From the NCBI GenBank assembly GCA_030057555.1, contig JASGUU010000049.1:1-48343 (forward strand): a DNA stretch of 48,343 bases. The letters run 5' to 3'. Origin of the DNA: Bacillota bacterium (GTDB taxonomy: Bacteria > Bacillota > Clostridia > Saccharofermentanales > Fastidiosipilaceae). Below, piece by piece: positions 7,969 to 48,231 of this stretch. Each line of letters opens with the position of its first letter. Position 1 is the first letter of the stretch. The notes under the pieces were generated by a model, which saw only the letters and a program-made list of their open reading frames with translations, made no database searches and was not told the origin of the DNA. The translations under genes were made by a program, and so were the position numbers.

Positions 7969-7970
7969 AT

Positions 7971-10898: not shown

Positions 10899-10899
10899 C

Positions 10900-11280: not shown

Positions 11281-11292
11281 GGAGAGAGAAGA

Positions 11293-11763: not shown

Positions 11764-11792
11764 TCACGATCAACAGCAACAACAGAACTGAT

Positions 11793-11821
11793 AGAAGAGG
11801 CGGGTGATCCCCGCCTCTTCT
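11793..11821 (+). terminator. Attenuator hairpin after the major tail protein
   Basis: A perfect 12-bp stem pairs AGAAGAGGCGGG (11793-11804) with CCCGCCTCTTCT (11810-11821) around a 5-base loop (TGATC). Only a weak T-run follows. It is best read as a partial terminator or mRNA-stabilising 3' end that keeps the tail tube transcript more abundant than the chaperone genes. Confidence 0.65.
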
Positions 11822-11842
11822 CATATGCGGGGAGGAACTCAA

Positions 11843-12283
11843 ATGTACAAGCTTCAGCGGACTAAGCGTTTGAAAGAGGAAATCGCGCTCTGCGATGAGG
11901 CCGGCAATACCGTCAGAACGATTCAGGTCGACTTTGATGTTGACCAGCTCGGGAAGGCGTTCAATGAGCGCTGGAACAGCATCATCATGGCCGAACAGAC
12001 GATCAAAAAGGCTACGTCTGACGGAACGCAGACGAATCTCATCGAGGCCTACACGGCCTACGGCAATGCTGTCGTCAACATGGTCCGGCTTGTTTTTGGC
12101 GACGAGAATGCGGAAGTGATCTTTGACCACTATGAGCACAGGCCCACCGAGATCGCGACAGAAGTGTTCCCGTTCCTGATCCAAGTCGTTTTTCCTCGCG
12201 TGACTGCAGCGGCGAAGGAGAAGGCCGACAGGCTGCGCGAGAACTACGGCACATCGAGGGGCATTCTGCCGTTCAGGAAGTGA
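11843..12283 (+). CDS. Tail assembly chaperone (G-like)
   Basis: A 146-residue protein located between the tail tube and the Gp15-type protein, the usual place of the first tail assembly chaperone. An in-frame GTG at 11804 would put the start inside the attenuator hairpin; ATG 11843 with GGGGAGG (11829-11835) is preferred. The product is alpha-helical and charged. I found no convincing slippery sequence at its end, and the Gp15-type gene has its own ATG 7 bases later, so frameshifted fusion is not needed. Confidence 0.72.
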   Translation: MYKLQRTKRLKEEIALCDEAGNTVRTIQVDFDVDQLGKAFNERWNSIIMAEQTIKKATSDGTQTNLIEAYTAYGNAVVNMVRLVFGDENAEVIFDHYEHRPTEIATEVFPFLIQVVFPRVTAAAKEKADRLRENYGTSRGILPFRK

Positions 12284-12290
12284 GGCCGGC

Positions 12291-12884
12291 ATGCTCAGCC
12301 TCACTCGGCCACAGCGCCATGAGGTGAGTCTGGACGGGCGGAGGTTCAAGCTGCGCCTGTCATTTGACCGCGTGCTCCTGGTCTATGAGCTCATGGCTGA
12401 TCCTGAGCCCGATGACGGTCTGAAGCTCGAAATTGCACTTCAGATTCTGGTCTCCGGCAGGCGCTGGAAACGACTCGCCCAAGAGGACCAGCATCGCCTT
12501 CTCTCCGTCATCTTCAGCGAGCACATCCAGACTGATAAGCGGCCTTCCGAAGGCGGCCCGAAGGTCATGGATTACACCGAGGACGCTGCGTATATCTTCG
12601 CAAGCTTCCGGTCCGCATACGGCATCGATCTCCTGCGGGAGCGCGGTCGGATGTCCTGGGCGGAGTTCTCCGCCCTTATGGATGGTTTGCCAGACAACAC
12701 AAAGCTGCGTGAAGTTGTGCGGATCCGTGCAGCTGAAGTGCCGATGCCAGATAAGCACAACGCAAAGTCCCGTGAAGCCCTACTCAAAGCAAAACGATTC
12801 TATGCCCTGAAGGCCGCCCAGGTGAGCTACCAGCAGGGTCTTGAAGCCCTGTTCGCATTCGCGAAATCCGTTTCCAGATCATGA
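12291..12884 (+). CDS. Tail assembly chaperone, Gp15 family
   Basis: A 197-residue member of the Gp15 family (the A118/Listeria phage type). Diagnostic text is DYTEDAAYIFASFRSAYGIDL at about 96-116, then MSWAEFSALMDGLPDNTKLREVV. These proteins coat the tape measure protein before tube assembly. It is encoded directly before the tape measure gene, as in relatives. The basic C-terminus is rich in lysine and alanine. Confidence 0.87.
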   Translation: MLSLTRPQRHEVSLDGRRFKLRLSFDRVLLVYELMADPEPDDGLKLEIALQILVSGRRWKRLAQEDQHRLLSVIFSEHIQTDKRPSEGGPKVMDYTEDAAYIFASFRSAYGIDLLRERGRMSWAEFSALMDGLPDNTKLREVVRIRAAEVPMPDKHNAKSREALLKAKRFYALKAAQVSYQQGLEALFAFAKSVSRS

Positions 12885-12902
12885 GCAAAGGAGGACTGGC
12901 AA

Positions 12903-15515
12903 ATGGCAGATGGCAAAGTCCTCTATGAGCTACGCGCAGACGGCAGCCTGATCGAGCACGATCTCGACCAGGCTAATGCCAAGGTGGAAGGCCGCGCGAG
13001 TCAGTTCGGTGCGACAGCCGCAAAGCTAGGCCTTGCGCTTGGAGCTGGCATCGCTGCGGCTGGAACTGCTGCAATCCGGTTCGGGTCTGACTTCGAACAG
13101 GGCATGGCGAATGCCAGCACGCTGTTTGGCGAGTTCACGCCGAACATGGATGATCTAAACCGGCGCATGCTCGAGCTCTCGAGCAGCACGGGTGTGGCAG
13201 CGAGTGAGCTGACCGATGGCTTCACGCTGGCGCTGTCTTCTGGCATCCCGGCATCTGATGATATGGCAGAGGCTCTGGCGTTCCTCGAGCAGTCGACGAT
13301 GCTGGCCAAGTCGGGCTTCACAACGCTCGACACCGTTGTCGACGCAACAACATCGATCCTCAACGCCTACAAAATGGACGTAACCGAGACATCGCGCGTC
13401 CATGAGATCCTGCAGAAGACACAGGACCTTGGCAAAACAACCGTCGATGAACTTGGGCACAGCCTTGCGCAGGTCACGCCGACTGCTGCAGCCATGAACG
13501 TCAGCTTCGAACAGATCGGTGCCGCACTGTCCGTCATGACAGCCCAGGGTATTCCGACTGCTCAGGCAACGACGAAACTGAACAGCCTCCTCAATGAGCT
13601 TGGCAAGTCTGGCACGAAGGGCAGCGACGCCCTGAAGGCCGCCACGAAGAATACCCAGCATGCCGGCAAGTCCTTCGCGGAACTGATGGCTGAAGGCGTG
13701 CCGCTGTCTGAGCTCCTGACGCTGATCGGCGATCATGCTGAGGCAAACGGCCTGCAAATGGCTGACATGTTCGGAAGCATCGAAGCGGGCTCCGCAGCTC
13801 TGACAATGTCAGGGCAGAATGCCGAGCATTACAGCGAAGTCCTGGCTGAGATGGCAGCTGAGACGGGAGCGGTCGAAGCAGCTTTTGAGAAGGTGACTTC
13901 GACAACCGGCATGCAGTTCGACAAGATGTTGAACGAGCTGAAAAACAGTGCGATCGAGCTCTTCTTTGAGATGCAGCCGTTCATCATGGAGCTGCTGCCT
14001 CAGCTCATGGATGCCCTTCGCGAGATCATGCCGCCTCTCATGGCCGCTGCTGCCGAAGTGGTTCCACTCCTTGGCGAAGCGCTGGTAGAGCTGCTTCCGC
14101 TTCTGGCTGATCTTGCGAGCGGCCTGTTGCCTCCGCTTATCGACCTGTTTTCGCAGCTGATTCCTCCGATCATTGAGATCGCGGAAGCGATTCTGCCGAT
14201 CCTGATTGGAGCGTTCGGGCTTCTGGCAGAGCCATTGCTGGAGCTGGTCGAGTCGCTGATGCCCCTTCTGGTCGATCTCTTTGTCGGCCTCATCGAGCCG
14301 CTGACATCGATGGCCGAGGCACTGCTGCCTGTTCTGGTTGACCTGTTCACGCAGCTCATCCCTGTGATCCTCGAGATCGTGGAGAACGTGCTGCCTGTTC
14401 TGGTAGAACTGTTTGAAATACTGGCACCTATCGTCCAGCGCATAGTTGAGGAACTCCTGCCGCCTCTGCTGCAGCTGTTTATGGACCTGATTCCTCCTCT
14501 GATGGAGATCATCGAGGGCATACTTCCGCCTCTGGCGGAACTGTTCAGCGCCATCATCCCGATTTTGATGGAGATCATCGAGGCAGTGCTGCCTCCGATC
14601 ACAGCTCTCTTTCAGAACCTTATCCCGCCGCTCTTGGAGCTCATTCAGGCCGTTATTCCTCCACTCACGGCGCTGTTTGATGCGATCATTCCTGTTCTTC
14701 GCGAGATCATTAATGCCGTTCTGCCACCGTTAATCAGTCTCTTCGAGGGCTTGATAGAGCCTCTGATGGAATTGATCGGCGCGGTGATCCCGCCCCTGAC
14801 GGAGCTCTTTGATGCGCTCAAGCCTGTGATAGATCAGATATCGGAGGCTGTGCGTCCGCTGATTGAGGTCTGGGGTGAGTATATCGCCCAAATCGTTAAG
14901 GATGCCATGCCGGTCATCGATGCGCTGGCAGAGATTCTAGGTGGAGTTCTTGGCACGGCAATACAGGCCGTTACAGATGCGATTGACCCGCTCATTCAAG
15001 TATTTCAAGGGCTCATTGATTTCATCACAGGCGTTTTCACAGGCAACTGGGAACAGGCCTGGAATGCCGTCAAAAACATCTTCGGAGGAATCTGGGATGG
15101 CCTGGTGGCGTTGGTTAAGATGCCGATCAATACCCTGATTGACCTCATCAACGGATTCCTCGGCGGTCTCAACAACATCCGCATCCCAGATTGGGTGCCC
15201 GCCGTGGGCGGACAAGGATTCAACATTCCGCCGATCCCTCGGCTGCGAGTCGGCATGGAGTATGTGCCGGCAGACGAGTTCCCGGCACTGCTGCACGAAG
15301 GCGAGGCTGTTCTGACAGCTGAGGAGGCCAGGCGCTGGCGCAGAGGATTGCCGCGTTACGAGCTGCCAGCGTTTCCGGAAGCCTCTGGACTCGCACTTGC
15401 CGGGATGCCGGCGATCCAGAATCACATCGAACTCCGAGCGACCATTGATGTTGACGGTTTCACATTGGGTGAAGTCATGTTTCGAAACATGGACGATGTG
15501 AGGGGGCTCAACTAA
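12903..15515 (+). CDS. Tail tape measure protein
   Basis: An 870-residue protein that sets tail length. Residues about 75-340 form a TP901-type PhageMin_Tail domain (FEQGMANASTLFGEF, then helices with Ala/Ser-rich text). Residues about 364-650 are regular 11-residue hydrophobic repeats, usually paired as 22-residue units beginning LPPL or IPPL. A soluble segment follows (about 650-780), with GNWEQAWNAVKNIFGGIWDGL, and a C-terminal tail of about 85 residues. It starts after AAAGGAGG. The stop overlaps the next ATG by one base. At roughly 1.5 angstrom per residue, a tail of about 130 nm would be expected from family knowledge. Confidence 0.92.
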   Translation: MADGKVLYELRADGSLIEHDLDQANAKVEGRASQFGATAAKLGLALGAGIAAAGTAAIRFGSDFEQGMANASTLFGEFTPNMDDLNRRMLELSSSTGVAASELTDGFTLALSSGIPASDDMAEALAFLEQSTMLAKSGFTTLDTVVDATTSILNAYKMDVTETSRVHEILQKTQDLGKTTVDELGHSLAQVTPTAAAMNVSFEQIGAALSVMTAQGIPTAQATTKLNSLLNELGKSGTKGSDALKAATKNTQHAGKSFAELMAEGVPLSELLTLIGDHAEANGLQMADMFGSIEAGSAALTMSGQNAEHYSEVLAEMAAETGAVEAAFEKVTSTTGMQFDKMLNELKNSAIELFFEMQPFIMELLPQLMDALREIMPPLMAAAAEVVPLLGEALVELLPLLADLASGLLPPLIDLFSQLIPPIIEIAEAILPILIGAFGLLAEPLLELVESLMPLLVDLFVGLIEPLTSMAEALLPVLVDLFTQLIPVILEIVENVLPVLVELFEILAPIVQRIVEELLPPLLQLFMDLIPPLMEIIEGILPPLAELFSAIIPILMEIIEAVLPPITALFQNLIPPLLELIQAVIPPLTALFDAIIPVLREIINAVLPPLISLFEGLIEPLMELIGAVIPPLTELFDALKPVIDQISEAVRPLIEVWGEYIAQIVKDAMPVIDALAEILGGVLGTAIQAVTDAIDPLIQVFQGLIDFITGVFTGNWEQAWNAVKNIFGGIWDGLVALVKMPINTLIDLINGFLGGLNNIRIPDWVPAVGGQGFNIPPIPRLRVGMEYVPADEFPALLHEGEAVLTAEEARRWRRGLPRYELPAFPEASGLALAGMPAIQNHIELRATIDVDGFTLGEVMFRNMDDVRGLN
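13994..14850 (+). repeat. Hendecad (11/22-residue) repeat tract in the tape measure gene
   Basis: About 13 units of 66 bp encode 22-residue repeats of the form LPPLxxLFxxLIPPLxEIIEAV. The copies have drifted in DNA sequence, but the phase (P-P every 11 residues) is kept with no insertion. Such hendecads form long straight helices. The tract is a natural site for tail-length variation by unequal recombination. Confidence 0.85.
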
Positions 15516-17014
15516 TGATTGAATGCAGAATCAATGGTGTGCCCTACGCGCTCCAGTTTCCGTTCTCCATCTCGGAGAAGGCAGGGAACAACACGTCATC
15601 AACTATCCTTGTTGAGGTCGCCGATGGCCAGCGAATCCCGGTCGCCGGCGACCTCATTGAGCTGCAAGAAGACGGCGGGACACTGTTTCTGGGCACGTGT
15701 GGGATCCCCACCTCTCCGAAGTTCAAAAGCCCATTGACGCCGCGGATCTACAAGATCGTGTGCGGCAACGGGAACAGCCTTCTGCGGAGGCGCATTGTCA
15801 ATTACGGCACACAAAACAAAACGATCACCGAGATCGTGGAATATCTCTATTCCACCTACATCCAGGCGGAAGGCATTAGCAAGGGGATTGTTTCGGCGAT
15901 CCCCATCACGCTCAATGCCTACACTGCTGCGGACATGGGGCTGCAGGACGTTCTAAATGAGCTCGCTGACTATGTGAGCGGGGCCTGGCAGGTCACGAAT
16001 GACCGTGTCTTCCATTTCATCGCGAAGGATGACTTTGACCACTTCCCTGCAACTGTAACCGGGTCAACGTTCCTGGGTGCGGAAATTCAGACGCAAACCA
16101 AAGATCAGGACACGCGCACGAGCCAGACGGTGAAGGGACTCATGGCGATCACCGACACGCAGACGGAATCTTTCTCTTTCGACGGGGTGAAGGATGTCTT
16201 TGACACCGCCTTCCCGATCGTGCAGAAGCCGACGCAGATCAAACGCGGCGATGGCATAATCCTTCCGCAAGATCGCATAGGGGTGAAAGGCATTGATGAT
16301 CAGAGCCCCAATATGGTGTTTCTGTTTGCGTTCAACAGCCGGGAGCTAACTTATCGGAAAACCTCCAGCTGGTTGGCAGCTGGGCAATCCTTCTCGGTGT
16401 CTTATGCTGGCCAGTTCCCGATCCGTGTCCATAGCTACAACATCCAGAAGATCGCGGAAATCTCCGCTCAGACAGGCACGTCTGGTCTCATTGATCATGT
16501 CCACGAGGACAACACTCTGACAACGATTGAGGACGCGCAGCGGCTTGCTGACAGCCTGATCAGTAACTATGGGGACGCCAGGAGAGAGGTTTCATTCTGG
16601 CTCAGGAGCTCACACCTGGACGCTGCAGACCTGACGCTGGATGACTTCCGCCTGATGCGTCAGTTTACGTTTGCGATGCCGGAGATCGGACTCTCCGGAG
16701 ACTTTGTTGTTACCGAGCGGACGCTTGAGAGCATGTCCGCAGCCATGCCCTTCGAGGATGGTCTGCGGATCAGGCTGAAGCTCGTGGACCGTGGCTTTGT
16801 GCGGAGCTATGGGCAGACGCTGAAGGTGCTGGTCAAGCAGCAGCAGCGGAACATCCGCGAGGATGTGATCGTTGTCACGCAGCAGGAGCTCGAGGATACG
16901 CCGCGTATCTGGGAAGCCCTGGAATGGAGCTACGGTCACCCGGTCTTCTGGCCGGTCGCATCAACCGCAACGGCAAATGACCCATTTGATGGACTGGCAA
17001 TCTATCCGGCTTAG
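15515..17014 (+). CDS. Baseplate/tail hub protein
   Basis: A 499-residue structural protein following the tape measure gene, in the position of the distal tail or hub protein. It is beta-rich in the first 130 residues (ILVEVADGQRIPVAGDLIELQEDG) and again around 290-420 (FLFAFNSRELTYRKTSSW), and ends in an extended tail with tryptophans and prolines. This pattern fits hub proteins of Firmicutes siphoviruses (Gp37-like). There is no clear peptidase motif. The ATG overlaps the tape measure stop by one base. The exact baseplate role is inferred from gene order. Confidence 0.72.
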   Translation: MIECRINGVPYALQFPFSISEKAGNNTSSTILVEVADGQRIPVAGDLIELQEDGGTLFLGTCGIPTSPKFKSPLTPRIYKIVCGNGNSLLRRRIVNYGTQNKTITEIVEYLYSTYIQAEGISKGIVSAIPITLNAYTAADMGLQDVLNELADYVSGAWQVTNDRVFHFIAKDDFDHFPATVTGSTFLGAEIQTQTKDQDTRTSQTVKGLMAITDTQTESFSFDGVKDVFDTAFPIVQKPTQIKRGDGIILPQDRIGVKGIDDQSPNMVFLFAFNSRELTYRKTSSWLAAGQSFSVSYAGQFPIRVHSYNIQKIAEISAQTGTSGLIDHVHEDNTLTTIEDAQRLADSLISNYGDARREVSFWLRSSHLDAADLTLDDFRLMRQFTFAMPEIGLSGDFVVTERTLESMSAAMPFEDGLRIRLKLVDRGFVRSYGQTLKVLVKQQQRNIREDVIVVTQQELEDTPRIWEALEWSYGHPVFWPVASTATANDPFDGLAIYPA

Positions 17015-17028
17015 AAGGAGAGAAGGAC

Positions 17029-17523
17029 ATGTCAATACTGATCGAACCACAAGCATGGGCAGGCCGATACGAAATCGAACTGCTTGACGCTGATACGCTG
17101 GAGCTCATCGAGCGCTGGGAGCTCGAGAATCTGCTGATGGACATGCCGCGGCAGCGCTATCTTAGACAGCTGGCGGGGCAGCTGAATGGGCTGCAGATCA
17201 ATGACCTGACAGTCCGCTATCTCGCAATCGGCGACGGAACATCAGCACCTGCGATCACGCAGACAAAGCTCGACAACGAGCGCTATCGACAGCAGGTGAC
17301 CGCGAAAACCCTTAGCACTGACCGCCTGACAACCATGGTCAGCATCTCCCCTTTCCAGACAGCAGCCAACTTCCGCATCCGAGAGATCGCGATCTTTTGC
17401 GGAGGCGCTGCGACGATGGCGAAGGACAGCGGGCTGATGCTGTCGCGTGCCCTGGTAGATATCGAGAAGAACTCGAACACCATCCTCAATATCATGAGGC
17501 AGGACATCGTCACACTGAACTAA
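17029..17523 (+). CDS. Tail fibre/collar-like baseplate protein
   Basis: A 164-residue protein with a collar-like pattern: VRYLAIGDGTSAPAITQTKLDNE (about 63-85), then NFRIREIAIFCGG. The text 'IGxG(T/S)xAPxxxxTxLxNE...FxIREIxxFxGG' recurs in phage fibre N-terminal domains that plug into the baseplate. It starts after AGAAGGAGAG, and the next fibre gene is 19 bases downstream. It probably links the hub to the fibre. Confidence 0.7.
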   Translation: MSILIEPQAWAGRYEIELLDADTLELIERWELENLLMDMPRQRYLRQLAGQLNGLQINDLTVRYLAIGDGTSAPAITQTKLDNERYRQQVTAKTLSTDRLTTMVSISPFQTAANFRIREIAIFCGGAATMAKDSGLMLSRALVDIEKNSNTILNIMRQDIVTLN

Positions 17524-17542
17524 TAGTAGGGAGGAGGCAGCG

Positions 17543-18664
17543 ATGGCATACACCAAGCATCAATGGCTGAAACGGCTCGGAAGCGGCCTGAACAAGTTCC
17601 GTGACACGATCTCGAATCAGCTGTTCGCGCTGGTCAACGAGCCTGACAGCGTGACCCAGGAGGGCACGCCGCTTCGCGAGGATTGGCTGAATGAGATGGA
17701 GCAGGGCATCTATGACGCCCACGGACTGGCGGGTGCTGCACAGACGGCGGCGGATGCGGCGCAGAGCACGGCTAATGCAGCGCTGCCCGCGTCTAGTTAT
17801 ACAGCCGCTGACGTGCTGGCGAAGATTAAGACCGTGCATGGCAGCGGCAGTGGATTGGATGCCGACAAGCTCGATGGGAAAGAAGGCGCTGCATATCTGG
17901 AGCGATCAGGCGGCGTCATGACAGGCGCCCTAGATATGGGGCTGCAGCGCATTGTGTCGCTTCAGGACCCGGCAAATGAGGCGGATGCGGTGCCGCTCGG
18001 ATTTGTGCGCGACCGGTTCGCGCTCTCAAGCGCTTACAATCACGAGAACGGCTATCTAATCCGGACGCGGATTCCGGCCACATTGTCGACAATGTTGACG
18101 CTGTATGTGTACGGAAACAGTTACACGGGCATCGCGCCCGTTTTGGCAGTGGTTCAGGGTTATCATTATATCCCGAGCGATGCATTCTTGAATACCGGTG
18201 CGGTGGCTACCGGAAACATCGCAGACATCAAGTTCTTTATTTATCAGGACAAAATACATATATGGCTGCGGCAGCAGCGGACATTTACAACGCTGTTTTT
18301 TCATCTACATTCGACCGTATATGGCGTTCGGCGGGAATACAATTGCATCGAAAGCGTCGCGAATGCTGCAATGCCGACATCTGGCGTGACACGGTTGAAA
18401 GCAGTTGACATTGACCCGCTATGGCATGCTCGGAATGACGGAATAGATTCGGGGCTGGATGCTGACAAGTTGGATGGGATGGAGCCAAGCTCTCCCAATG
18501 CTGGAAACACGATCGTGCAGCGTGACGGCAATGGCCGGTTTCTTATATCATCGCCCATATCTGCGGGGCATGCAGCCAACAAAAGCTACGTAGACAGCAA
18601 AATTCTGTCCGGCACGTCGGTTCCGAGCTCGCTTGAACCCGGGCAAATCTTTGTGAAGATTTAG
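17543..18664 (+). CDS. Tail fibre / receptor-binding protein
   Basis: A 373-residue fibre. The N-terminal part is helical and alanine-rich (GAAQTAADAAQSTANAALP, about 63-81). GLDADKLDG occurs twice (about 103 and 310), and GGVMTGALDMGLQRI (about 124-138) is the common phage fibre 'MTGxLxMGxxxI' module. A central domain of about 150 residues, with more aromatic residues and lower GC, lies between the two DADKLDG motifs and is the likely receptor-binding part. The end (AANKSYVDSKI) matches fibre C-termini. Flanking repeated motifs would permit domain swapping by recombination. Confidence 0.8.
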   Translation: MAYTKHQWLKRLGSGLNKFRDTISNQLFALVNEPDSVTQEGTPLREDWLNEMEQGIYDAHGLAGAAQTAADAAQSTANAALPASSYTAADVLAKIKTVHGSGSGLDADKLDGKEGAAYLERSGGVMTGALDMGLQRIVSLQDPANEADAVPLGFVRDRFALSSAYNHENGYLIRTRIPATLSTMLTLYVYGNSYTGIAPVLAVVQGYHYIPSDAFLNTGAVATGNIADIKFFIYQDKIHIWLRQQRTFTTLFFHLHSTVYGVRREYNCIESVANAAMPTSGVTRLKAVDIDPLWHARNDGIDSGLDADKLDGMEPSSPNAGNTIVQRDGNGRFLISSPISAGHAANKSYVDSKILSGTSVPSSLEPGQIFVKI

Positions 18665-18666
18665 CC

Positions 18667-19230
18667 ATGGCTACCGACATTAGAGCGCGCAGCCAAGAGC
18701 TGTCTGATGCATGGGGCGTCGGCTATCGGCCAACATCGGGAATCAGCAGCCGCGTGCGGCTGGCCGGCACGCCCGTCGACAATGGTGACGGCACCTGTAC
18801 CATCGTTTTCGTGATCACGGTTCAGACCAACGCGGCGAGCTTCGGCACGGGCATCACCTATTATGCGGACATTATTATCAGCGGCACGGCCTACCGCAGG
18901 ACGATTAAGAGTTCTTCTACCACGTGGGCGGCCAACCGGACGTACAACGTGCAGCATTCTGTCACGTTTCCGATGACCGGGAATGCGCAGCGCACGGCGC
19001 GGCTGGTGATCACTGGTTCCGGAGGTTCGGCGCTTGATCTCGACAGCCATCCGCAGGGCGGTACCACACTTGATAATGTTCCTGTCTTGGCAGGATATGT
19101 CTACATTCAAGCAGGCAGCTCTGTCGTGAGAGGAGAGGTCTGGATTGGCGACGAGAGCGGCACGCCCGTGCGGGCTAAAGAAGTGTGGATAGGCGACGAG
19201 AGCGGGGTGCCCAGAAAGGCGACGATATGA
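18667..19230 (+). CDS. Tail-associated protein with C-terminal EVWIGDESG repeats
   Basis: A 187-residue protein starting two bases after the fibre stop without a clear ribosome binding site, so it is probably coupled. The main part is beta-rich (IVFVITVQTNAASFGTG, YYADIIISGTAY) and may be an Ig-like or fibre-cap domain. The last 35 residues hold a 15-residue tandem repeat (EVWIGDESGTPVRAK, EVWIGDESGVPRKAT). This resembles the 'VYVGVNGKARKV' beta-hairpin repeats common in Firmicutes phage surface proteins. The function is probably fibre decoration or host binding. Confidence 0.65.
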   Translation: MATDIRARSQELSDAWGVGYRPTSGISSRVRLAGTPVDNGDGTCTIVFVITVQTNAASFGTGITYYADIIISGTAYRRTIKSSSTTWAANRTYNVQHSVTFPMTGNAQRTARLVITGSGGSALDLDSHPQGGTTLDNVPVLAGYVYIQAGSSVVRGEVWIGDESGTPVRAKEVWIGDESGVPRKATI

Positions 19231-19276
19231 AAATGGAGGATGATGGCACAAAAGAGACACGTATGTTACCAAAAGT

Positions 19277-19295
19277 CTGTATACTAAACATACAG
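19277..19295 (+). promoter_or_regulatory. Inverted repeat with -10 element before the Panacea gene
   Basis: CTGTAT (19277-19282) and ATACAG (19290-19295) form a perfect inverted repeat with a 7-base spacer. A -10 like TATACT (19280-19285) lies within it, 42 bases before the ATG. No good -35 is seen. An operator overlapping its promoter fits an autoregulated cassette with its own transcription inside the prophage. Confidence 0.5.
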
Positions 19296-19327
19296 AAGGA
19301 ATAACTGTTCAAGAAGGGAGCAAGGTC

Positions 19328-19849
19328 ATGGCATACTCAGCAGTTGATGTCGCACGCTATGTCGTGAACTATTCCCACGATATAGGGAAGCCTGTGTCAA
19401 ATCTTAAGCTCCAAAAGATTCTCTACTACCTTCAGGGGTACTTTTTTGGATATAAGAACCGCACCTTATTCGATGACAAGATTGAGGCATGGGCTCTTGG
19501 CCCTGTGGTGAGGTCTGTATACCTTGAGTTTTGTGGGCATGGGGGCTTATCAATACCAAAGGTGACATCTGTTCCTGTTCACAGGGCAGATAGAGGATTG
19601 GAATTCGACGATACAATAGATCTGTTTGAAACCAAGCCATATGAGGACGTGATCAAACCTGCGGATGCACATCTCATACGAGAACTAGTGCGTCATCTGT
19701 CTGATTACTCAGCTACAGCTTTAGTAGACGCTACTCACAGCCGAGGACCTTGGAAGGATTACTACCGAGAAGGGCTGAAAGTTGAGATCCCAATGAAAGC
19801 CATTGAGGCATATTTCAAGTCGATTGCGGCAAGAAGAGATAGGACATGA
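19328..19849 (+). CDS. Panacea/SocA (DUF4065)-type antitoxin
   Basis: A 173-residue protein with the Panacea (DUF4065) signature: YSAVDVARYVVNYS, LQKILYYLQGYFFG (about 28-41), and DDKIEAWALGPVVRSVY (about 49-65). Proteins of this family neutralise diverse toxins encoded next to them (for example SocA with SocB). AGGGAG precedes the ATG. The stop overlaps the next start by 4 bases (ATGA), the usual coupling of an antitoxin-toxin pair. It lies between tail fibre and endolysin, a common cargo site, and its base composition is more AT-rich than that of phage structural genes. The antitoxin role is from family knowledge plus context. Confidence 0.82.
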   Translation: MAYSAVDVARYVVNYSHDIGKPVSNLKLQKILYYLQGYFFGYKNRTLFDDKIEAWALGPVVRSVYLEFCGHGGLSIPKVTSVPVHRADRGLEFDDTIDLFETKPYEDVIKPADAHLIRELVRHLSDYSATALVDATHSRGPWKDYYREGLKVEIPMKAIEAYFKSIAARRDRT

Positions 19850-20760
19850 GTATACATATTGATGATGTCTTTGAATTTGGTGATGAGTTCAATCAACCAG
19901 ATAGTATCATCTACTTGTCAGAACGGGATCAGAACATACTCCTAAAACAGCTTGTAAAGTTATTGAAACCAAGCGAGTTCGAGAATATATATAAAGAAAT
20001 CGACCGGATTAGCAGGACGTACGGGCGGTTAAACTACTCTGTCACGACGCAATTCTGCTACACACTCCTTGACGAAAACAACTTGGAGGATCTGCTGGAG
20101 CCAATATGTGAGGAAATTGACTGCTTGTCCCAAAATATAGATAGTCTGCTTCGCGGAATTGATGCTCACGAATCAGATGCTCTCGATGATGAAAGCAAGC
20201 AAAGAATATCACGTAGCCTTCTACGGCTATATGATCATGTTCAGCTAGCATTGGTACAGCATCGTCAAATCCGCACACCTAGCGGGTGGCTGAAGTTACA
20301 AGTTAAAGACGTTGAAAGTCGCGTGGATGACTTGGATAACACGCAGAAGGATCTTCGCGATATGCAGGGGAAAGCACTCGAAGCTCTTGATTCCGCTGAA
20401 AGGAGTATGACGAATCAGATAATTGGAATTGTTGCGATCTTCACCGCACTATCTTTTGTTTTGTTCGGTGGGATCTCCGCGCTATCAACAGTTACTCAAT
20501 TGTTCACAGAGCCTCTGTTCAAGATCATATCCATGGGAGCGATCTGGGGCATCGGAATGTTCAATCTGCTATTAGTATTCGCACATTTTATCAATCGGAT
20601 TATTGGGCGGAATGAGGCTGCGTCTGCGAAGTCACCAGGAGCGGGTACTTACAAGCCAATAAAAGGATTCTGGCGTCAGAATTGGATCTTCTTTGTTGTG
20701 AATGGTTCTCTTCTGCTCTTGCTTTTGATTTCATCTTCCCTGTATTTCCTACTAAAGTGA
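19846..20760 (+). CDS. Coiled-coil membrane protein, candidate toxin/effector paired with Panacea
   Basis: A 304-residue protein not matching a named family I know. An acidic soluble domain covers about 1-145. A charged coiled coil follows (LQVKDVESRVDDLDNTQKDLRDMQ, about 150-190), then three hydrophobic segments (about 191-213, 225-253, 281-303). The arrangement, sensor or regulatory part plus membrane-spanning C-terminus, resembles membrane-disrupting effectors of abortive infection or toxin-antitoxin systems. It overlaps the Panacea gene by 4 bases and is AT-rich, and a terminator closes the two-gene unit. The toxin role is inference; a superinfection-exclusion protein is the alternative. 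Confidence 0.6.
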   Translation: MSIHIDDVFEFGDEFNQPDSIIYLSERDQNILLKQLVKLLKPSEFENIYKEIDRISRTYGRLNYSVTTQFCYTLLDENNLEDLLEPICEEIDCLSQNIDSLLRGIDAHESDALDDESKQRISRSLLRLYDHVQLALVQHRQIRTPSGWLKLQVKDVESRVDDLDNTQKDLRDMQGKALEALDSAERSMTNQIIGIVAIFTALSFVLFGGISALSTVTQLFTEPLFKIISMGAIWGIGMFNLLLVFAHFINRIIGRNEAASAKSPGAGTYKPIKGFWRQNWIFFVVNGSLLLLLLISSSLYFLLK

Positions 20761-20808
20761 GTCTTCTGGAATCTTCTATGAATTGAAAGCAGAATAGCTT
20801 AGGAAACA

Positions 20809-20832
20809 AGCGGCGAAAGGGCCGCTATTTTT
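20809..20832 (+). terminator. Terminator closing the Panacea cassette
   Basis: AGCGGC (20809-20814) pairs with GCCGCT (20821-20826) around GAAAGG, followed by ATTTTT. Directly after it, TGCCCC/GGGGCA (20834-20850) forms a second hairpin that touches the AGGAGG ribosome binding site of the endolysin. The string CCGCTnTTTTTATGCC recurs at 7959-7973 before the scaffold leader. Confidence 0.75.
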
Positions 20833-20865
20833 ATGCCCCGAAAAGGGGCAAGGAGGAACATCAAC

Positions 20866-21822
20866 ATGGCACTTAACAATCTACAGCTCGCCCAAGCCGC
20901 GGAGCAGATGCATCGGGAGAAGTGGGTCTACGTCCGCGGCACGTTCGGGAACGTCGTGACCCCATCCCTGCTTGATTACAAGTGCAGGCAGTACTCATCG
21001 AACGCATCTCAGCGTGCCCTCTTGGACACGTTCCACGGCAGGATAGCCGTTGACTGCATCGGGATCCTCAAGGCCGCCCTCTGGGGCAACATGGCCGGGC
21101 AGGGACGGTACCAGGCCGCCCAGGACCGCAACGACGCCATGAGTCATGCTGCGGCACGTGAAAAAGGGCCTCTGGCCACGATCCCGCGGCAGGTTGGCAT
21201 CACGCTCTGGCATGAGGGGCATGTCGGCTACGTCGTCGATGTAAGCGCAGAGCGCTGGCAGGACTGGATCTTCGTTGATGCCTTCTCCAGCAGGGTCGGG
21301 CTGCGTCGCATGCGCATCGGGGACTATCCACGCTGGCAGGAGTGGTTCCGCGACACCTACGTGGATTACAGCGTGGAGTACCAGCCGCCCGAGCAGACCG
21401 ATGACGTACCCGGTGGCGGCGGAACGATCGGCGATGAGACGCACGAGTTCCACGCCACCTATATCGCAAACCGAGACATCCAGGGCTACGCGGAACCTTT
21501 GTGGCGCGGTGGAACGCGACCGATCATGTTTGAGGGCCAGACCTTCACGATCGACCGCAGGCTCAACAAAGGCGAGGACTACTTCGGTCGGGATGCTGCC
21601 ACCGGCATCTGGTACCACATCCACAGCGAGGAAGCATGGCATGTCCGGGATGCAGAGAACACGGTCACCATCAGCCGGGGCGATACGCTATGGGAGATCG
21701 CGGTGAAGGAGCTGGGAGACGGTAGACGCTGGCCCGAGATTGCAGCCCTGAATCCCGGCATTGATCCCGCGCTGCTGCGTGTCGGGACAGTCCTGCGGAT
21801 TCCGGCATGGGAAATGAGGTGA
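20866..21822 (+). CDS. Endolysin: NlpC/P60-like cysteine peptidase with LysM
   Basis: A 318-residue peptidoglycan hydrolase. The N-terminal domain (about 5-165) has VDCIGILKAALWG with C64 as nucleophile and HEGHVGYVVD with H119, the DCxG and HVGxY pattern of NlpC/P60 peptidases. A Gly-rich linker at about 187-192 separates it from a middle segment that may be SH3-like (about 195-262). The C-terminus is a LysM cell-wall-binding repeat (TISRGDTLWEIAVKELG to VLRIPA, about 268-315). ATG 20866 is chosen over an in-frame ATG at 20833, which lies in the terminator tail, because AGGAGG is at 20851-20856. It opens the lysis module. Confidence 0.88.
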   Translation: MALNNLQLAQAAEQMHREKWVYVRGTFGNVVTPSLLDYKCRQYSSNASQRALLDTFHGRIAVDCIGILKAALWGNMAGQGRYQAAQDRNDAMSHAAAREKGPLATIPRQVGITLWHEGHVGYVVDVSAERWQDWIFVDAFSSRVGLRRMRIGDYPRWQEWFRDTYVDYSVEYQPPEQTDDVPGGGGTIGDETHEFHATYIANRDIQGYAEPLWRGGTRPIMFEGQTFTIDRRLNKGEDYFGRDAATGIWYHIHSEEAWHVRDAENTVTISRGDTLWEIAVKELGDGRRWPEIAALNPGIDPALLRVGTVLRIPAWEMR

Positions 21823-38308: not shown

Positions 38309-38536
38309 AATGAACGGGGCGGAGGCTGCGTCAGCACAGGGCGGTACGCCGGAGCCCGGTCCCGGCTCTTTACGGAAGACCTTGTTTTCGTATGCCTGTA
38401 ATTCCGGCTGCTCGCCTGGATCAGGGAGAAATCTGGCACATGCAGAGCGATCCAGGTTCTGTAGCCCAGATGCCGTGTGATAAAGGCGATCCCGACAAGC
38501 AGTGCGCCGCACAGCAGCGTGCGCGCCCTTCTTCAT
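38309..38536. other. Intergenic stretch with remnant of a signal-peptide gene
   Basis: No intact gene. On the minus strand a start at 38536 (MKKG...) is followed, one reading frame over, by TLLCGALLVGIAFI, a good membrane or signal segment. The combination suggests the 5' end of a frameshifted gene, cut off by the hairpin array. Weak evidence. Confidence 0.35.
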
Positions 38537-39015
38537 GGTCAGGATGTGGACTTTTCCAAATCTTTTTTTGGATTACTCTTCGTTTTGACCAGAAACGGCC
38601 CCTTTTTGGTCAGGATGGCGAGTAATCCAAATTGTTTTTTGGATTACTCCCAAAGTTGACCAGAAACGCCCCCTTTGTGGTCAGGATGGCGAGTAATCCA
38701 AATCTTTTTTTGGATTACTCCTCGTTTTGACCAGAAACAGCCCCTTTGTGGTCAAGATGGCGAGTAATCCAAATTGTTTTTTGGATTACTCCCAAAGTTG
38801 ACCAGAAACGCCCCCTTTGTGGTCAGGATAGGGACTTTTCCAACTCTTTTTTTGGATTACTCCTCGTTTTGACCAGAAACAGCCCCTTTGTGGTCAAGAT
38901 GGCGAGTAATCCAAATCTTTTTTTGGATAACTCCTCGTTTTGACCAGAACCGGCCCTTTTGTGGTCAAGATAGCGAGAAATCCAAATTATTTTTGGATAA
39001 CTCTTCATTTTGACC
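38537..39015. repeat. Array of seven hairpins with an exact 71-bp period
   Basis: Units start with GGTCA at 38537, 38608, 38679, 38750, 38821, 38892 and 38963, exactly 71 bp apart. Each is a palindrome of about 54 bp, GGTCA...GAGTAATCCAAA-n-TTTGGATTACTC...TGACC, separated by a 17-bp spacer like AGAAACnGCCCCTTTGT. Units 1 and 5 share a variant left arm (GGACTTTTCCAA) that no longer pairs with its right arm. Spacer-side variants partly alternate, suggesting a 142-bp higher-order unit. Open frames through it are chance. Confidence 0.9.
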
Positions 39016-39413
39016 ACCAGAAGTCCGCAGGCTTTTTTCCCTGCCAGCCGTCCTTCTGGCATGCACCCCCGTTTCCCGCCCGGGTGCGCCTCCTGCCGTT
39101 CTCTGTCGTGGTTTCAGACAGGTTGTCTAATTCCTGCAGTCTCATCTCAGGGGTGCCAGACGTGTAACGTACTCTTCACCCAGGTCATGCCACAATATTC
39201 GCCGCTCCATCAATGGTCCTGGGGGTCTGGTGCTTCACTGCCACGTTGAACCACAGCTTCTGCCGCATCCGGCTTCGAGCTGATCTGAAAAAGGGATAGA
39301 CCGGGTCTGGTGTTGCCTGACTTCACCCAGAAGTGGACGATTTGACGCTTCAACACTTCAAGTGATAGATAAGCAACAGCATACCTGTCTATCTTTTCTA
39401 AACCGTAAACATA
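39016..39413. other. Gene-poor stretch
   Basis: Roughly 400 bases without a convincing gene. On the minus strand a 27-codon frame (about 39272-39189) starts MRQKLWFNVAVKH and could be a fragment of a decayed gene, possibly a transposase. No terminal inverted repeats or flanking duplications are visible. Confidence 0.35.
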
Positions 39414-40993: not shown

Positions 40994-42187
40994 TTATACC
41001 GTCATTGCGTCAAGGATGCGCTCAAAAACGCTGTTTATGGCCTCTGCTTCAGCGAGTGCCTTTGCGTCTCTCTTTCGTTGATCTTCCGGAAGCAGATCGA
41101 TCTCATGATTGTATGTCCGGTCTGTTGACATTTGTTCCGTGTGTCCGACCAGTAGTTTGATGTCCTCTTCCGAGACGCCGGCAAGTTGCCTGCCGTAGCT
41201 CACGAAAGTATGCCGCAGATGATGAAGCGTCACAGTTATGCCATGCGCAGACGCGAAGAAGCGCCAGGCATCGCTCAGGCGTCGAGGCTTGAGCAGCCCT
41301 CCATCCGCGTCCGGGAATAAGTAAACAGGCTTACTTACACGGCCTGTATCCTTGGCACGTGCGATGTGAGCGTCTAGCTCTATCTGGGCAAGTCTCCCGA
41401 GTGTGATAACGCGCCCTTTATGGATGGACTTCCCGTCAGTCACGTCCAGATCATGACTGATGGACTCGTTAATAATGATCTGCCCAGGACTGCTCTCAGT
41501 CGGTGGGCGATAGTCGCGGCTGGCCTTGAGTGCGCAGAATTCGCCGCGGCGAATTCCGGTTAAGGCGATGAAGCGGAAGCAATGGATATACCAGCTTGCA
41601 TCATCGGTCTCCGGTGAAAGCAAAAGGGCTAGCTGCGAAGGCTGGAGGATCTGAGCTTTCTTGGGCGGTGTGCGGACTGGGTAATCGAAGTAGATCGGGA
41701 CATCGATATCTGCGATCCATCCGCGCCCGGCAGCGAACTTGCAGAATCCCCGGATTGTGGTGGCGATGCCCTCAAGTGTCTCGCGCGATGCACCATGCCC
41801 AGTCTTCTTCTTTATCCTGACGTTCGCCTGGTCAATGATGCGCTGCCAGTCTGCCTTTGTGATCTCCGACAGCTTCTTGTTCTTCAGCGGTCGGAGCAGG
41901 TGTGCGGCGCCTCGGGTACGGAGTCCCTTCCAACTTGTTACTTTGTTTTTTATGCGGTACCAGTCCAGGTACTCCTGCCAAGCATCAGAAAAGAAGATCC
42001 CTTCGGGCTGATCGACGCTTTCAATCCATTCAAGATACTTCTGCCGGCATTCCGCAGGGCCGCGCTTCCCTGATGCGATTTTGGAATAGAACGTTTTCCG
42101 CTTGCCCTTATACCTTGCGTCCATCTTCCAATACTGGCGGTTCTCATCCCAGCGCGGTGTTGGCATGTCAGCCGCGCGCCTAGCCAT
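40994..42187 (-). CDS. int: Phage tyrosine integrase
   Basis: A 397-residue tyrosine recombinase. An N-terminal AP2-like arm-binding part (RWDENRQYWKMDARYKGKRKTF) is followed by a SAM-like core-binding domain (about 63-165). The catalytic domain has R213 (TGIRRGE), K about 258, H322 and R325 (HHLRHTF), H349 (VGHT) and Y359 (DRTYNH). All key residues are present. It is transcribed toward the att core 75 bases away and overlaps the ImmA-like gene by 8 bases. The target is the tRNA-Ser 3' end. Confidence 0.95.
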   Translation of the reverse strand: MARRAADMPTPRWDENRQYWKMDARYKGKRKTFYSKIASGKRGPAECRQKYLEWIESVDQPEGIFFSDAWQEYLDWYRIKNKVTSWKGLRTRGAAHLLRPLKNKKLSEITKADWQRIIDQANVRIKKKTGHGASRETLEGIATTIRGFCKFAAGRGWIADIDVPIYFDYPVRTPPKKAQILQPSQLALLLSPETDDASWYIHCFRFIALTGIRRGEFCALKASRDYRPPTESSPGQIIINESISHDLDVTDGKSIHKGRVITLGRLAQIELDAHIARAKDTGRVSKPVYLFPDADGGLLKPRRLSDAWRFFASAHGITVTLHHLRHTFVSYGRQLAGVSEEDIKLLVGHTEQMSTDRTYNHEIDLLPEDQRKRDAKALAEAEAINSVFERILDAMTV

Positions 42188-42569
42188 AGAATCCCCAACG
42201 CTTCACGGCAGCCTCCATGAAGTGGACCGGTACATCGAAGTGCTCTGCGACATCTGCAACACTCAGGCCCTGGCAAAAGAGCTGAACGGCCTTGTGCCAG
42301 TCAAGCAGCAGCTCCATTGCGACCTTCATCGCACGGCCTTCCGTCCATCGGATGTTGCTGGGATTTTTTGAACGGACAGTATCACCGCCTCCGGTCATGT
42401 AATGCCCGATCTCCTCTGCAAGGACACAGCGCATCTCCCTGTTCGACAGGGAAGGGTCCAGGAAGATCGTTCGATCTGCGAGTATCCCGCTGACCGATTG
42501 CAGAGGAGTCTCCACAACCTTCAGGCCTTTTTCCTCCGCAAGCATGATTAGCTCGTCCAACGTCTTCAT
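42180..42569 (-). CDS. ImmA/IrrE-like protein (anti-repressor peptidase)
   Basis: A 129-residue protein of the ImmA group, with VLAEEIGHYMTG (about 49-60), where the first zinc histidine of HExxH is Glu; this E-variant is seen in other phage ImmA-like proteins. ImmA proteins cleave or inactivate the phage repressor after DNA damage. It lies in one transcript with the integrase (8-base overlap), with AGGAGG before its ATG and a LexA-box-like site upstream. The likely target is the repressor at 43522. Catalysis is uncertain because of the changed ligand. Confidence 0.8.
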   Translation of the reverse strand: MKTLDELIMLAEEKGLKVVETPLQSVSGILADRTIFLDPSLSNREMRCVLAEEIGHYMTGGGDTVRSKNPSNIRWTEGRAMKVAMELLLDWHKAVQLFCQGLSVADVAEHFDVPVHFMEAAVKRWGFYG

Positions 42570-45055: not shown

Positions 45056-45268
45056 ATGGATAAGTATATCAGCATTCTGGTCGCTATGTCCACGCTCCTC
45101 GGTTCCCTGATAGGTGCCGGAGGCACGGTCATTTACTTCCAGATCCGTGAACTGAGGCGTCTGCGTGACGCACAGGAACACGCGCGTCAGCAGGAGCGCT
45201 ACGCAGCGCTCCGCAGGGACATCAGAAGAAACATCAGAGTTATTGGAGGTTCTAAGCCATGCGCCTGA
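45056..45268 (+). CDS. Small single-pass membrane protein
   Basis: A 70-residue protein with one N-terminal membrane helix (ISILVAMSTLLGSLIGAGGTVIYF, about 5-28) and an Arg-rich, helical cytoplasmic tail. AAAGGA precedes the ATG. It overlaps the Rad50-like gene by 10 bases. Small early membrane proteins in phages often affect superinfection or replication anchoring; no family is recognised. Confidence 0.55.
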   Translation: MDKYISILVAMSTLLGSLIGAGGTVIYFQIRELRRLRDAQEHARQQERYAALRRDIRRNIRVIGGSKPCA

Positions 45269-47235
45269 TCACGATCAAGCTGGAGAACTTCCAGCGTTTC
45301 CAGAAGCTCGATGTCCGGCTGGATGGGCGCGATGCCGCCATCATCGGCCAGAACGAAACAGGGAAGAGCACCATCGCGAACGCGATCACTTGGGTGCTCA
45401 CTGACAAGCCCTATACCGACGAGCCGGGTTATACGCCCAAGAGCATCAAGGGCAAGGATTTTGCCCACAACCTCGACCACAGCGCGACGCTTATCTACGA
45501 GCTCGAGAACGGAAGGCAGATCGAGCTGAAGAAGACACTCCGCGAAACGTGGACAAAGAAGCGCGGATCAACGACGGCTGAGATGACTGGCCACACAACA
45601 TCCTACTGGATCGATGACCTGCCTCTTGCGATGAAAGACTACAACAGTCGCATCGCGGAACTGTTTGGAGACTCTGAAACGATCCAGCTGCTGACACGGC
45701 CAGATTTCTTCTCATCCGCAATGCCCTGGGCAAAGCGCAGGCATCTGCTCCTGGACATCTGTGGTGACATCTCTGATGAAGATGTGGTCCGTTCGGACAA
45801 GGATCTGCAGCCGCTCCTGGAACTCATTGCAGATCGCACGATTGATGAGATCTCTCAGATCGCCAGGCAGCGCGCGAAAAAATGCAACGATGAGCTGCAG
45901 CTGCTCCCGGCACGCATCGATGAGGCACTGCGCTCAATTCCGGCGGATCTTCCGGATGAGGAAGACCTCGAGGAGAGGATCCGTAAGGCCGTTTCCGCGC
46001 TCAAATCAATGCGCCAGGAGCTCGCAGGACTGTCCACCACAGCCGGCGCGAGCGATGAGCTCATGGGACAACTGAAAGCCGCCAGACGCGCCTACAGCGA
46101 CGCCAGGGAGCAGCACGAAAGCGCTGAACGCAAAGCGAAGCTTGACCACAAAGCGCGGAGACGCGAACTCGAGGACGTGATTGACGAGATCAAAGCACGA
46201 CTCCGTCGCGAGAAATGGTCGTTCGAGCAGACAACCACTGAGCGGGATAACATCGCTGCGCGACGTCAGAAACTGGTCGAAGAGATCGAAGCTCTGGTTG
46301 CTTCCAGGTACACCGGAGAAACGGTCTGCCCGGTCTGTAAGCAGGATCTCCCCGCGGATCAGGTGGAGGCCTCCATCGCTGCCTGGAATGAGCAGCGCGC
46401 AAAGAAAATCGAACGCCTGACGGAAGAGGGCAAGCAGCGCTACAGCGCTGCAGCGATCCGGGAGCTTCAGGCAAAGATCGATGAGATTGCTGAAGCTATC
46501 AACGCTCTCAAGCGAGAGCTAACTGAGGCTGAGATGAGGCTGAGTGAGCATCTGGATGAACGGGTTGAGACAGTGCCGTTCGAGCTCACACCTGAAGAGA
46601 CGCCGCTGCGCGAAAGCGTAGAGCGCCTCGATCGTCTGGTTGAAGAAGCCAATGCGGATGATCCGGTGATCGTAGAGGCGCGCGGGACGATGGAGGAGAA
46701 GATCAGGAAGGAAGAGGAGTACCTGGGCGAACTGCAGCGTCTCCAGCAGCAGAAAGACCTCGCTGCCAGACAGAAGGATCGTGTCGCCGAACTGGAGGCC
46801 CGAGAGAAAGAGCTGGCCACCGAGTTCGAAGCACAGCAGAAGATCGTAAGGCTCTGCGAAACCTTCGTGCAGCGGAAGGCTGAACTGTTGACGGACAGCA
46901 TCAACAGTCGATTCAAGCACCTTCGCTTCCGCCTGTTCGTTGAACAGATCAATGGCGGCCTGAAGGAAGACTGCGAAGTCCTGATCCCGTCCGAGACGGG
47001 AAACCTTGTTCCTTACAAGTCCGCCAACACGGGCGGACGCATCCTCGCCGGCGTCGAGATCATCGGTGTCCTGGGTGAGTTCTTTGATTGCCATCTACCG
47101 ATCGTGATCGACAACGCCGAATCCGTCACAAATCCTATCCGCACTTCCGCCCAGGTGATCCGCCTCATTGCAAGGCCGGACACGCCTGAGCTGATCATTG
47201 AGCTCGATGAAAGCAGAGAAAGCGAGGCTGCATAA
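45259..47235 (+). CDS. Rad50/SMC-like AAA ATPase (phage recombination)
   Basis: A 658-residue ATPase with Walker A GQNETGKST at 30-38, two long coiled-coil arms (about 190-330 and 375-545) around a zinc-hook-like CPVCKQD at 357-363, and a Walker B region PIVIDNAE at about 612-619. The pattern is that of Rad50/SbcC, shortened as in phage versions. It starts after TTGGAGG at 45242-45248 and abuts recT. With RecT and the downstream MBL hydrolase it probably forms a phage recombination/end-processing module. Confidence 0.9.
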   Translation: MRLITIKLENFQRFQKLDVRLDGRDAAIIGQNETGKSTIANAITWVLTDKPYTDEPGYTPKSIKGKDFAHNLDHSATLIYELENGRQIELKKTLRETWTKKRGSTTAEMTGHTTSYWIDDLPLAMKDYNSRIAELFGDSETIQLLTRPDFFSSAMPWAKRRHLLLDICGDISDEDVVRSDKDLQPLLELIADRTIDEISQIARQRAKKCNDELQLLPARIDEALRSIPADLPDEEDLEERIRKAVSALKSMRQELAGLSTTAGASDELMGQLKAARRAYSDAREQHESAERKAKLDHKARRRELEDVIDEIKARLRREKWSFEQTTTERDNIAARRQKLVEEIEALVASRYTGETVCPVCKQDLPADQVEASIAAWNEQRAKKIERLTEEGKQRYSAAAIRELQAKIDEIAEAINALKRELTEAEMRLSEHLDERVETVPFELTPEETPLRESVERLDRLVEEANADDPVIVEARGTMEEKIRKEEEYLGELQRLQQQKDLAARQKDRVAELEAREKELATEFEAQQKIVRLCETFVQRKAELLTDSINSRFKHLRFRLFVEQINGGLKEDCEVLIPSETGNLVPYKSANTGGRILAGVEIIGVLGEFFDCHLPIVIDNAESVTNPIRTSAQVIRLIARPDTPELIIELDESRESEAA

Positions 47236-48231
47236 ATGGCTGTTCAGAACCTGAATCAGAGCCATACGGCTCAGCCCAGCCGTCTGAATCGCATGGCGAC
47301 CCAGATCGCCGAGACCGTCATGAAGGGCATCGATGTCAATAACGGAGTTGTCTCCGCCGGCGAGGCGAAGCGGCTCGCCCTGAACCTCTTTGTCCGAGCG
47401 AATGCCGCCCTCGAAGAGTCAAAGATCGTTCTGGATGGCGGAAGGCCGGCAGGTTGGGGGGATGTCGACGCGCCGAAGTTTGTCATGGACGCGATGAAGA
47501 TTGTTAGCATCGGTCTCGACGCCGGGAACAATGAGGCGTATGCGATCCCTTACAGAAACACCAAAACCGGAAGGGTCGAGCTGCAGTGCAGTCCTTCCGC
47601 CTGGGGCCTCCGGAAGCTCGTCATCCAGCATTCCATCGGCAAGCCGATCAGCGACATCAGACCTTTCATCATCCGCGAAGGCGACAGGTTCACCGTGCGC
47701 CACACGCCGAAGGATGACATCTGGGAGCTCTCTTCCGATCCCTTTAACTCCGGTGAAATTCTTGGCTATGTGACGATCGCGCTCTATGAGGATGGAACCT
47801 CGCAGGTCATGACTCACACGCTGGATGACATCAAGAGATTGCGGGAAGCCTCGAAGTCGCCGAATTCTCCCGCGTGGACAAAGTGGGGGCCTGAGATGGC
47901 GATCGCCAAGGCCATTCGACGTCACGCGAAGCGAATCACGTGGAAGCTGCCGCAGTCCGCCCAGGATGCTTTCAATGCTCTCGAGAGCGATGAAGCAGCT
48001 GCCACGCTCGAGATCGAAGCGAACGCAGGGAGTCAGGTTGTCGACCTGACTCCCGCGCCGCGGGCGGAGATCGAGACGCCTCAGCCTTTCCGCAGGCCTG
48101 AACCCGAACTGGAGTATCTGGATGCTCAGAACGCGACTGCAGCACAAGAAGAGGTTCTCGAGCCTTCGTATGATGATGGCTTCGCAGAAGACCTGCCGTT
48201 TGACCTCGGAGCAGAAAGGTATGGGTTCTAG
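47236..48231 (+). CDS. recT: RecT-family single-strand annealing protein
   Basis: A 331-residue RecT. Family text includes NRMATQIAETVMKGIDVNNG, MKIVSIGLDAGNNEAYAIPYRNTKTGRVELQCSP split across about 86-118, and AWTKWGPEMAIAKAIRRHAKRI. It anneals single-stranded DNA during phage recombination. An acidic C-terminal tail (about 260-331) is longer than in Rac RecT and may contact SSB-like or replication proteins. It begins on the base after the ATPase stop. Confidence 0.92.
   Translation: MAVQNLNQSHTAQPSRLNRMATQIAETVMKGIDVNNGVVSAGEAKRLALNLFVRANAALEESKIVLDGGRPAGWGDVDAPKFVMDAMKIVSIGLDAGNNEAYAIPYRNTKTGRVELQCSPSAWGLRKLVIQHSIGKPISDIRPFIIREGDRFTVRHTPKDDIWELSSDPFNSGEILGYVTIALYEDGTSQVMTHTLDDIKRLREASKSPNSPAWTKWGPEMAIAKAIRRHAKRITWKLPQSAQDAFNALESDEAAATLEIEANAGSQVVDLTPAPRAEIETPQPFRRPEPELEYLDAQNATAAQEEVLEPSYDDGFAEDLPFDLGAERYGF

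Follow-up and report, generated by a model that had tools for sequence, protein, structure and literature searches.

Between the genes of enterobacteria, the BIME/REP sequences associated with the RAYT transposase form tandem imperfect palindromes. The BOX elements of Streptococcus pneumoniae, as presented in PMC3049150, are modular repeats of the form boxA-boxB(n)-boxC with terminal inverted repeats (TIRs) and target-site duplications (TSDs); about 125 copies of 67–637 bp occur in one genome, the fold of boxB is largely independent of boxA and boxC, and the elements are probably parasitic and sometimes transcribed. The same paper describes the Correia elements of Neisseria, which carry no more than 156 bp of internal sequence between 26-bp inverted repeats; further background on MITEs, or non-autonomous DNA transposons, was taken from PMC4853749. 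The window analysed here, a 48,343-bp stretch of Bacillota DNA (contig JASGUU010000049.1, bp 1–48343), contains an array of seven hairpins that is the internal part of a larger, dispersed, non-coding element and not a stand-alone site. With BOX it has in common two end modules that enclose, in fixed order, internal hairpin modules of variable number, an internal module whose fold is largely independent, the presence of TIRs and TSDs, a dispersed and non-coding nature and a restriction to close relatives, whereas the present element differs in its 71-bp unit, a left module of about 300 bp, a 9-bp TSD, a size of 362–840 bp (against 67–637 bp) and its occurrence in another lineage of Bacillota. 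With Correia elements and other bacterial MITEs it shares being TIR-bounded, non-coding, intergenic, multi-copy and structured if transcribed, but the Correia elements described there are without an internal tandem hairpin array. The element is best classed as a modular bacterial MITE that is BOX-like by architecture alone, and it is not filed as a BOX element. Compared with BIME/REP sequences, it comes without RAYT, its units are direct, and TIRs and TSDs are present.

The array is located at bp 38536–39016 on the + strand, where TRF gave a period of 71 bp, 6.8 copies, 83% matches and 0% indels. An earlier note, made from the sequence of the window, had described seven hairpins at an exact 71-bp period; both the period and the position (within one base) were confirmed, with parts of the element now found to flank the array on either side. 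Cutting at 71 bp yielded six full units, each with a 56-nt hairpin and a 15-bp spacer, and a final hairpin of 55 nt; the absence of indels therefore holds for the spacing of unit starts but not for the hairpin of unit 7, which is one base short. The arms that had been attributed to all hairpins, GAGTAATCCAAA/TTTGGATTACTC, are perfect over 12 bp only in unit 2 (bp 38607–38677, with a right-side variant, CCCAAAG; fold z −7.3), unit 3 (bp 38678–38748, −32.5 kcal/mol on the + strand) and unit 4 (bp 38749–38819), whereas the other four units carry variants: unit 1 (bp 38536–38606) and unit 5 (bp 38820–38890) have in common the left arm GACTTTTCC, as had been noticed before, the right arm of unit 6 (bp 38891–38961) is GGATAACTC, and the arms of unit 7 (bp 38962–39016, without a spacer) are GAGAAATCC/GGATAACTC. 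All seven units were read on the + strand. Folding of three hairpins on both strands gave z values from −5.8 to −9.4, and 0/200 shuffles were as stable in each of the six folds. Comparison of the units revealed a single difference in 71 bases between units 2 and 4 and six differences between units 1 and 5, and the TRF score at period 142 (724) exceeded that at period 71 (654). The higher score at 142 and the near identity of units 2 and 4 indicate that two-unit blocks were duplicated, in line with the growth by multi-unit duplication proposed earlier. The 15-bp spacer is conserved (consensus GAAACGGCCCCTTTG, per-position majority 0.58–1.00) and not unique to each interval, which agrees with the array not being CRISPR-like.

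A search of the genome to which the window belongs (G000; 2.9 Mb in 90 contigs) returned at least 82 matches, and 40 of 95 candidates were scored. Orientation of the array flanks revealed a common left and a common right flank, the alignment of which defined two parts, L (about 300 bp) and R (about 85 bp), so that the element consists of L, 1–7 hairpin units and R. Its ends are 24-bp TIRs, GGGTGCACGTCAnnnnTGTCGGGA (the end sequence is also written GGGTGCACGTCA); L starts with GGGTGCACGTCATATTTGTCGGGA and has a GC-rich palindromic stretch at its end; the end of R is the inverse of GGGTGCACGTCAnnnnTGTCGGGA. Separate profiles for L, unit and R were used to examine 61 copies with 181 units in this genome, and there are further copies beyond the 61, for example at C26, C10 and C64:14709. 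The order L-U(n)-R was observed in 61/61 copies, both L and R being present in 38 of them; 12 copies had one unit, 10 had two, 20 had three, 10 had four, six had five, two had six and one had seven. Units were direct in 60/61 copies, with a reverse-strand unit in one (L066), and 101/110 intervals between units measured 71 bp. No Pfam match was found in L at E 10 in 5/6 frames of the consensus, one of these frames having been scanned in part, and folding of the L consensus gave only 23 pairs, of which five had changed on both sides, with a covariation term of −0.96, so that no conclusion is based on this fold. The GC-rich palindrome at the border of L and the array (about GCGCGCCGCGCAGCGGCGTGCGC; e.g. 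L050:3180–3234) varies in length and in tandem copy number; it was also found between hairpins in L010 and L013 of a sister species (see below) and is possibly a further small repeat family.

The copy in the window, truncated on the left and rearranged on the right, has the longest array among the 61 copies examined. On its left side, bp 38432–38530 (+) correspond to the 3′ third of L (profile positions 206–315; nhmmer, 66.5 bits), homology to other copies extending only about 90 bp from the array and the left TIR and first two thirds of L being missing; direct reading placed the GC-rich palindromic end of L, variable in length in the L alignment, at approximately bp 38503–38526 (+). On its right side, bp 39017–39078 (+) were identified with the R profile (positions 1–67 of 85; nhmmer, 48.8 bits) and by alignment as a truncated R lacking the right TIR. 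Joined to this R at bp 39069–39166 (+) are remnants of a second repeat, T2, in two pieces (about bp 39069–39112 and 39104–39166), recognized by blastn against other copies and by right-flank alignment; the same junction of truncated R with T2 recurs in L042, L055 and L057. T2 is itself a dispersed repeat of about 45 + 727 bp with the ends GTCCGGCACCC (L031:2660–2699 and 3418–4140), and its left end is present in 15 further loci. It often contains the hairpin element at one same point, with CCATTTTG duplicated, and T2 may have carried the hairpin element as cargo.

With up to three mismatches allowed, the TIR pattern was found at 70 places in G000 (28 forward and 42 reverse) and a reversed control at none. 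In the loci searched, all pairs of TIRs within 6 kb bound elements of 362–840 bp. Both TIRs were present in 29 elements among the loci tested, and after seven in a T2 context had been set aside beforehand, 22 were used in the test for TSDs. The 9-mers flanking these elements matched at 0.556 per base at zero offset, compared with about 0.31 at other offsets or for longer words, and the mean best 8-mer agreement was 6.09, compared with 4.26 (sd 0.21) in re-pairings, 0/2000 of which reached the observed value. An exact 9-bp duplication was retained in 2/22 elements (L081 and L089), most being degenerate. The flank comparisons establish 9-bp target-site duplications, now decayed, around the elements, and together with the TIRs these point to a DDE transposase.

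Insertion history was approached through a tree of 52 L parts, in which the 38 from G000 formed one clade (support 0.903) with the 14 from the sister species outside, meaning either that the element multiplied in this lineage once the two had separated or that its copies were homogenised. In two gene gaps that could be matched between the species by both flanks, each species had a copy, and the pairs concerned (L032/L111 and L052/L150) were rejected as orthologous insertions because the strands show opposite orientations; rather, they would be independent insertions into the same gaps. L080 and L027 had one flank only in common. At the level of sequence, these data are taken to establish the architecture, the TIRs, the 9-bp TSDs, the at least 61 copies and a lineage-specific amplification (or homogenisation).

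The sister species (G001; it matches Bacillota MAG JASGUW01, isolate MAG87_KBP), the nearest relative sequenced and the only other member of the genus among the genomes searched, shares the L and R parts, the TIR and the period with G000, and copies of the element are likewise scattered through it by the dozen. The earlier note had named random decay of the palindromes in sister strains as an outcome that would speak against the array; no such decay was seen, the 71-bp period being kept in 52/56 unit intervals of G001. The hairpin arms of G001 have diverged from those of G000. Blastn with part of the array matched 3/58 genomes, namely both members of the genus and G026, in which a single 24-bp hit was taken as chance. 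A covariance model of the hairpin matched 2/12 genomes of the family, both of this genus with at least 150 matches each, and none of the 10 further family genomes; likewise, the L part was detected in 2/188 genomes of the order and in none of the others among these 188. When the exact TIR pattern was searched across one genome per species (84,980 species), eight stretches were found, seven of them in JASGUW01 and one in a planctomycete MAG. The latter (L092:2669–2692) matches the 20 fixed TIR bases exactly, is without L, unit or R, and is probably a chance match. Viral contigs contained no match to the unit or TIR patterns, and no paper describing this hairpin element was found in the literature searched.

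Positions relative to genes were determined with our own simple gene caller, trained on 179 long ORFs, which is rough since it missed genes at 39–45 kb of the window. By this caller, an overlap of more than 40 bp with a gene was seen in 0/61 copies. For the 50 copies with a called gene on either side, the two neighbours were divergent in 16 cases, both on the same strand as the element in 15, both on the opposite strand in 11 and convergent in eight, and 59 element-free gaps were divergent in 13, tandem in 38 and convergent in eight. Unlike terminator-like repeats, the 61 copies were not enriched at gene 3′ ends as called. Other features were noticed in the window. Prophage structural genes (terminase large subunit, minor head protein, tape measure and endolysin-like protein; PHROGs) occupy bp 3227–21822. 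About 2 kb to the right of the array, a phage-type tyrosine integrase gene adjoins an IrrE-like peptidase gene (bp 40994–42187 and 42180–42569, both on the − strand), a pair that is likely a separate integrated element. At bp 45259–48231, an AAA ATPase gene (best PADLOC hits LmuB and AriA, both weak) is followed by a gene for 331 aa without a PADLOC match; the two form a possible defence locus.

Taken together, we consider it very likely that the array in the window belongs to a modular MITE, here present in truncated form and presumably mobilised in trans by a DDE transposase. The element is probably a parasite of the genome and not a site with a specialised role. In such a case, the transposase would recognise the TIRs and insert the element into intergenic DNA, while slippage or unequal exchange, as the block structure suggests, would add or remove hairpin units with the unit length preserved. 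By analogy with BOX, a copy landing in a transcript would equip it with a series of strong hairpins, which may attenuate transcription, stabilise the RNA or invite its cleavage, with no dedicated host function implied. Several observations count against this reading. Elements of 362–840 bp are longer than most bacterial MITEs, the conserved 300-bp L exceeds what the ends require for transposition and could have a function, most TSDs are degenerate, no clean empty site was seen, and an autonomous partner with the same TIRs was not found in the draft genomes searched. In the search for such a partner, the Mutator/IS256-type transposase (PF00872) was absent from G000 and G001, the ISL3-type (PF01610) was represented only by two 73-aa fragments in G001 with no full-length source, and the search for the ISLre2-type (PF06782), which also gave no full-length source, was uninformative because the control genomes were silent too. 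The surroundings of 19 DDE_Tnp_1 matches were checked for the TIRs, and none had such ends of its own; the only full TIR match near one of them (L133) belongs to a neighbouring copy already known as L069. T2 was rejected as the autonomous partner on account of its different ends, the lack of any Pfam domain and the weakness of its tblastn hits to DDE_Tnp_1 transposases of G001 (e.g. 19 aa at E 8.6e-4). The mobilising partner may have been lost, may belong to another family or may lie in an assembly gap.

The earlier note had also offered a BIME-like element and a segregation, replication or protein-binding site as possibilities. The former comes close in that a dispersed, intergenic family of tandem palindromes with imperfect stems was found, as expected of BIME/REP-type elements spread by RAYT (an HUH Y1 transposase), but the units are direct and not alternately inverted in 60/61 copies, they lie inside a TIR-bounded element whose 9-bp TSDs indicate a DDE transposase, and Y1_Tnp (PF01797) gave 0 matches in G000 while the control was positive in 5/14 genomes; the array is thus not a BIME, and spread by RAYT is very improbable and largely refuted. 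A site for chromosome segregation, replication or a nucleoid protein would fit the regular period, the dyad symmetry and the intergenic position. However, it is hardly probable in view of at least 61 scattered intergenic copies with 1–7 units, no clear orientation bias and a distribution limited, in the genomes searched, to a single genus. Moreover, with 10.5 bp per helical turn the 71-bp period corresponds to 6.8 turns, which would keep successive dyads from lying on one face. As to the array being an artefact of a metagenome-assembled genome, the draft has 90 contigs and several copies (L043, L044, L073 and L080) are at contig ends; contigs starting or ending in or near arrays imply that the family breaks the draft assembly and that unit counts may be compressed. 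Nevertheless, the unit sequences differ within and between arrays, arrays are embedded in unique flanks, and an independent genome has the same architecture, leaving this explanation with next to no probability: as far as the family's existence is concerned it has been refuted, whereas the count of seven could still change.

A further question was whether the array is a functional RNA module (a transcription attenuator, an mRNA 3′-end stabiliser or a multi-hairpin RNA) that selection maintains, the element being no more than its carrier, which we regard as unlikely. The + strand folds better in 125/141 distinct hairpins of G000 and 47/60 of the sister species, and G-U cells exceed A-C cells (457:91 and 135:29, respectively); these counts and those of arm pairing refer to hairpins of exactly 56 nt (157/169 in G000 and 67/71 in the sister species, 141 and 60 of them distinct). 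The G-U excess arises, however, from a few shared positions (8, 10 and 12 in G000; 9 and 10 in the sister species) and not from many independent changes, and it was discarded as strong evidence for a strand, being weak at the position level and opposed by the arm test within the genome. Among 64 hairpins picked for diversity out of 201 distinct ones from both species, 83.1% of cells pair, and the covariation score (0.196) was higher than that of shuffled sets (0.156; 0/500) and above all slid controls, whereas pairs with two-sided change (10 vs. 9.0) and further pair types (29 vs. 29.6) did not stand out. In the sister species, the core switches on both sides, from CCA/TGG to GGC/GCC, and the arms of G001 formed 1285/1500 pairs compared with 1239 ± 5.4 after shuffling (0/300). 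In G000, by contrast, arms pair less than under random re-pairing (3023/3525 vs. a mean of 3068.7, sd 9.1; 300/300 shuffles reached this number or more), chiefly at pairs 18–39 and 19–38, where arm variants co-occur in mismatching combinations, as though there were a bias against perfect palindromes or recombination of arms at the dyad. One hairpin in G001 (L019:1508–1563) is a hybrid in which a left arm of one subtype (ATCCAAA) is combined with a right arm from another (TTGCCAT), suggesting that exchange took place at the centre of the dyad. Gaps per substitution were lower in units (0.099) than in L (0.180) or R (0.187), a difference that a length constraint or homogenisation could explain. 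Further against an RNA module, no clear orientation bias to genes was seen (downstream gene on the same strand in 33 cases and on the opposite strand in 23), nor was a promoter-like site or an excess of terminator-like sites, and the Rfam search with the array and one complete copy yielded nothing credible, just chance matches below the threshold to miRNA-type and similar families. In its outline the hairpin is ancient and has been conserved, and the evidence for selection on pairing is mixed, since arms covary between species and under-pair inside G000. It is also conceivable, at a low probability, that the 71-bp array is itself under selection as a quantised device, acting as RNA or single-strand DNA, and the MITE a vehicle that spreads tunable chains of 1–7 units between genes; this is suggested by the unit length of 71 bp in both species despite two-sided change of the arms and by the better folding of the + strand, and the under-pairing in G000 would in that case result from selection against long, perfect palindromes at the DNA level.

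In practical terms, draft assemblies tend to be interrupted at such arrays, and unit counts obtained from them are unreliable. Should the array be no more than parasitic, the family would be an ordinary though neat case. As a probable modular MITE, it adds an independently recognisable BOX-like element, with ends, target duplication and unit defined, in a poorly known lineage of Bacillota, and what internal hairpin arrays do in MITEs of this kind can now be compared across unrelated families. The two related genomes with diverged arms provide a natural test of whether the pairing is kept or only the repeat.
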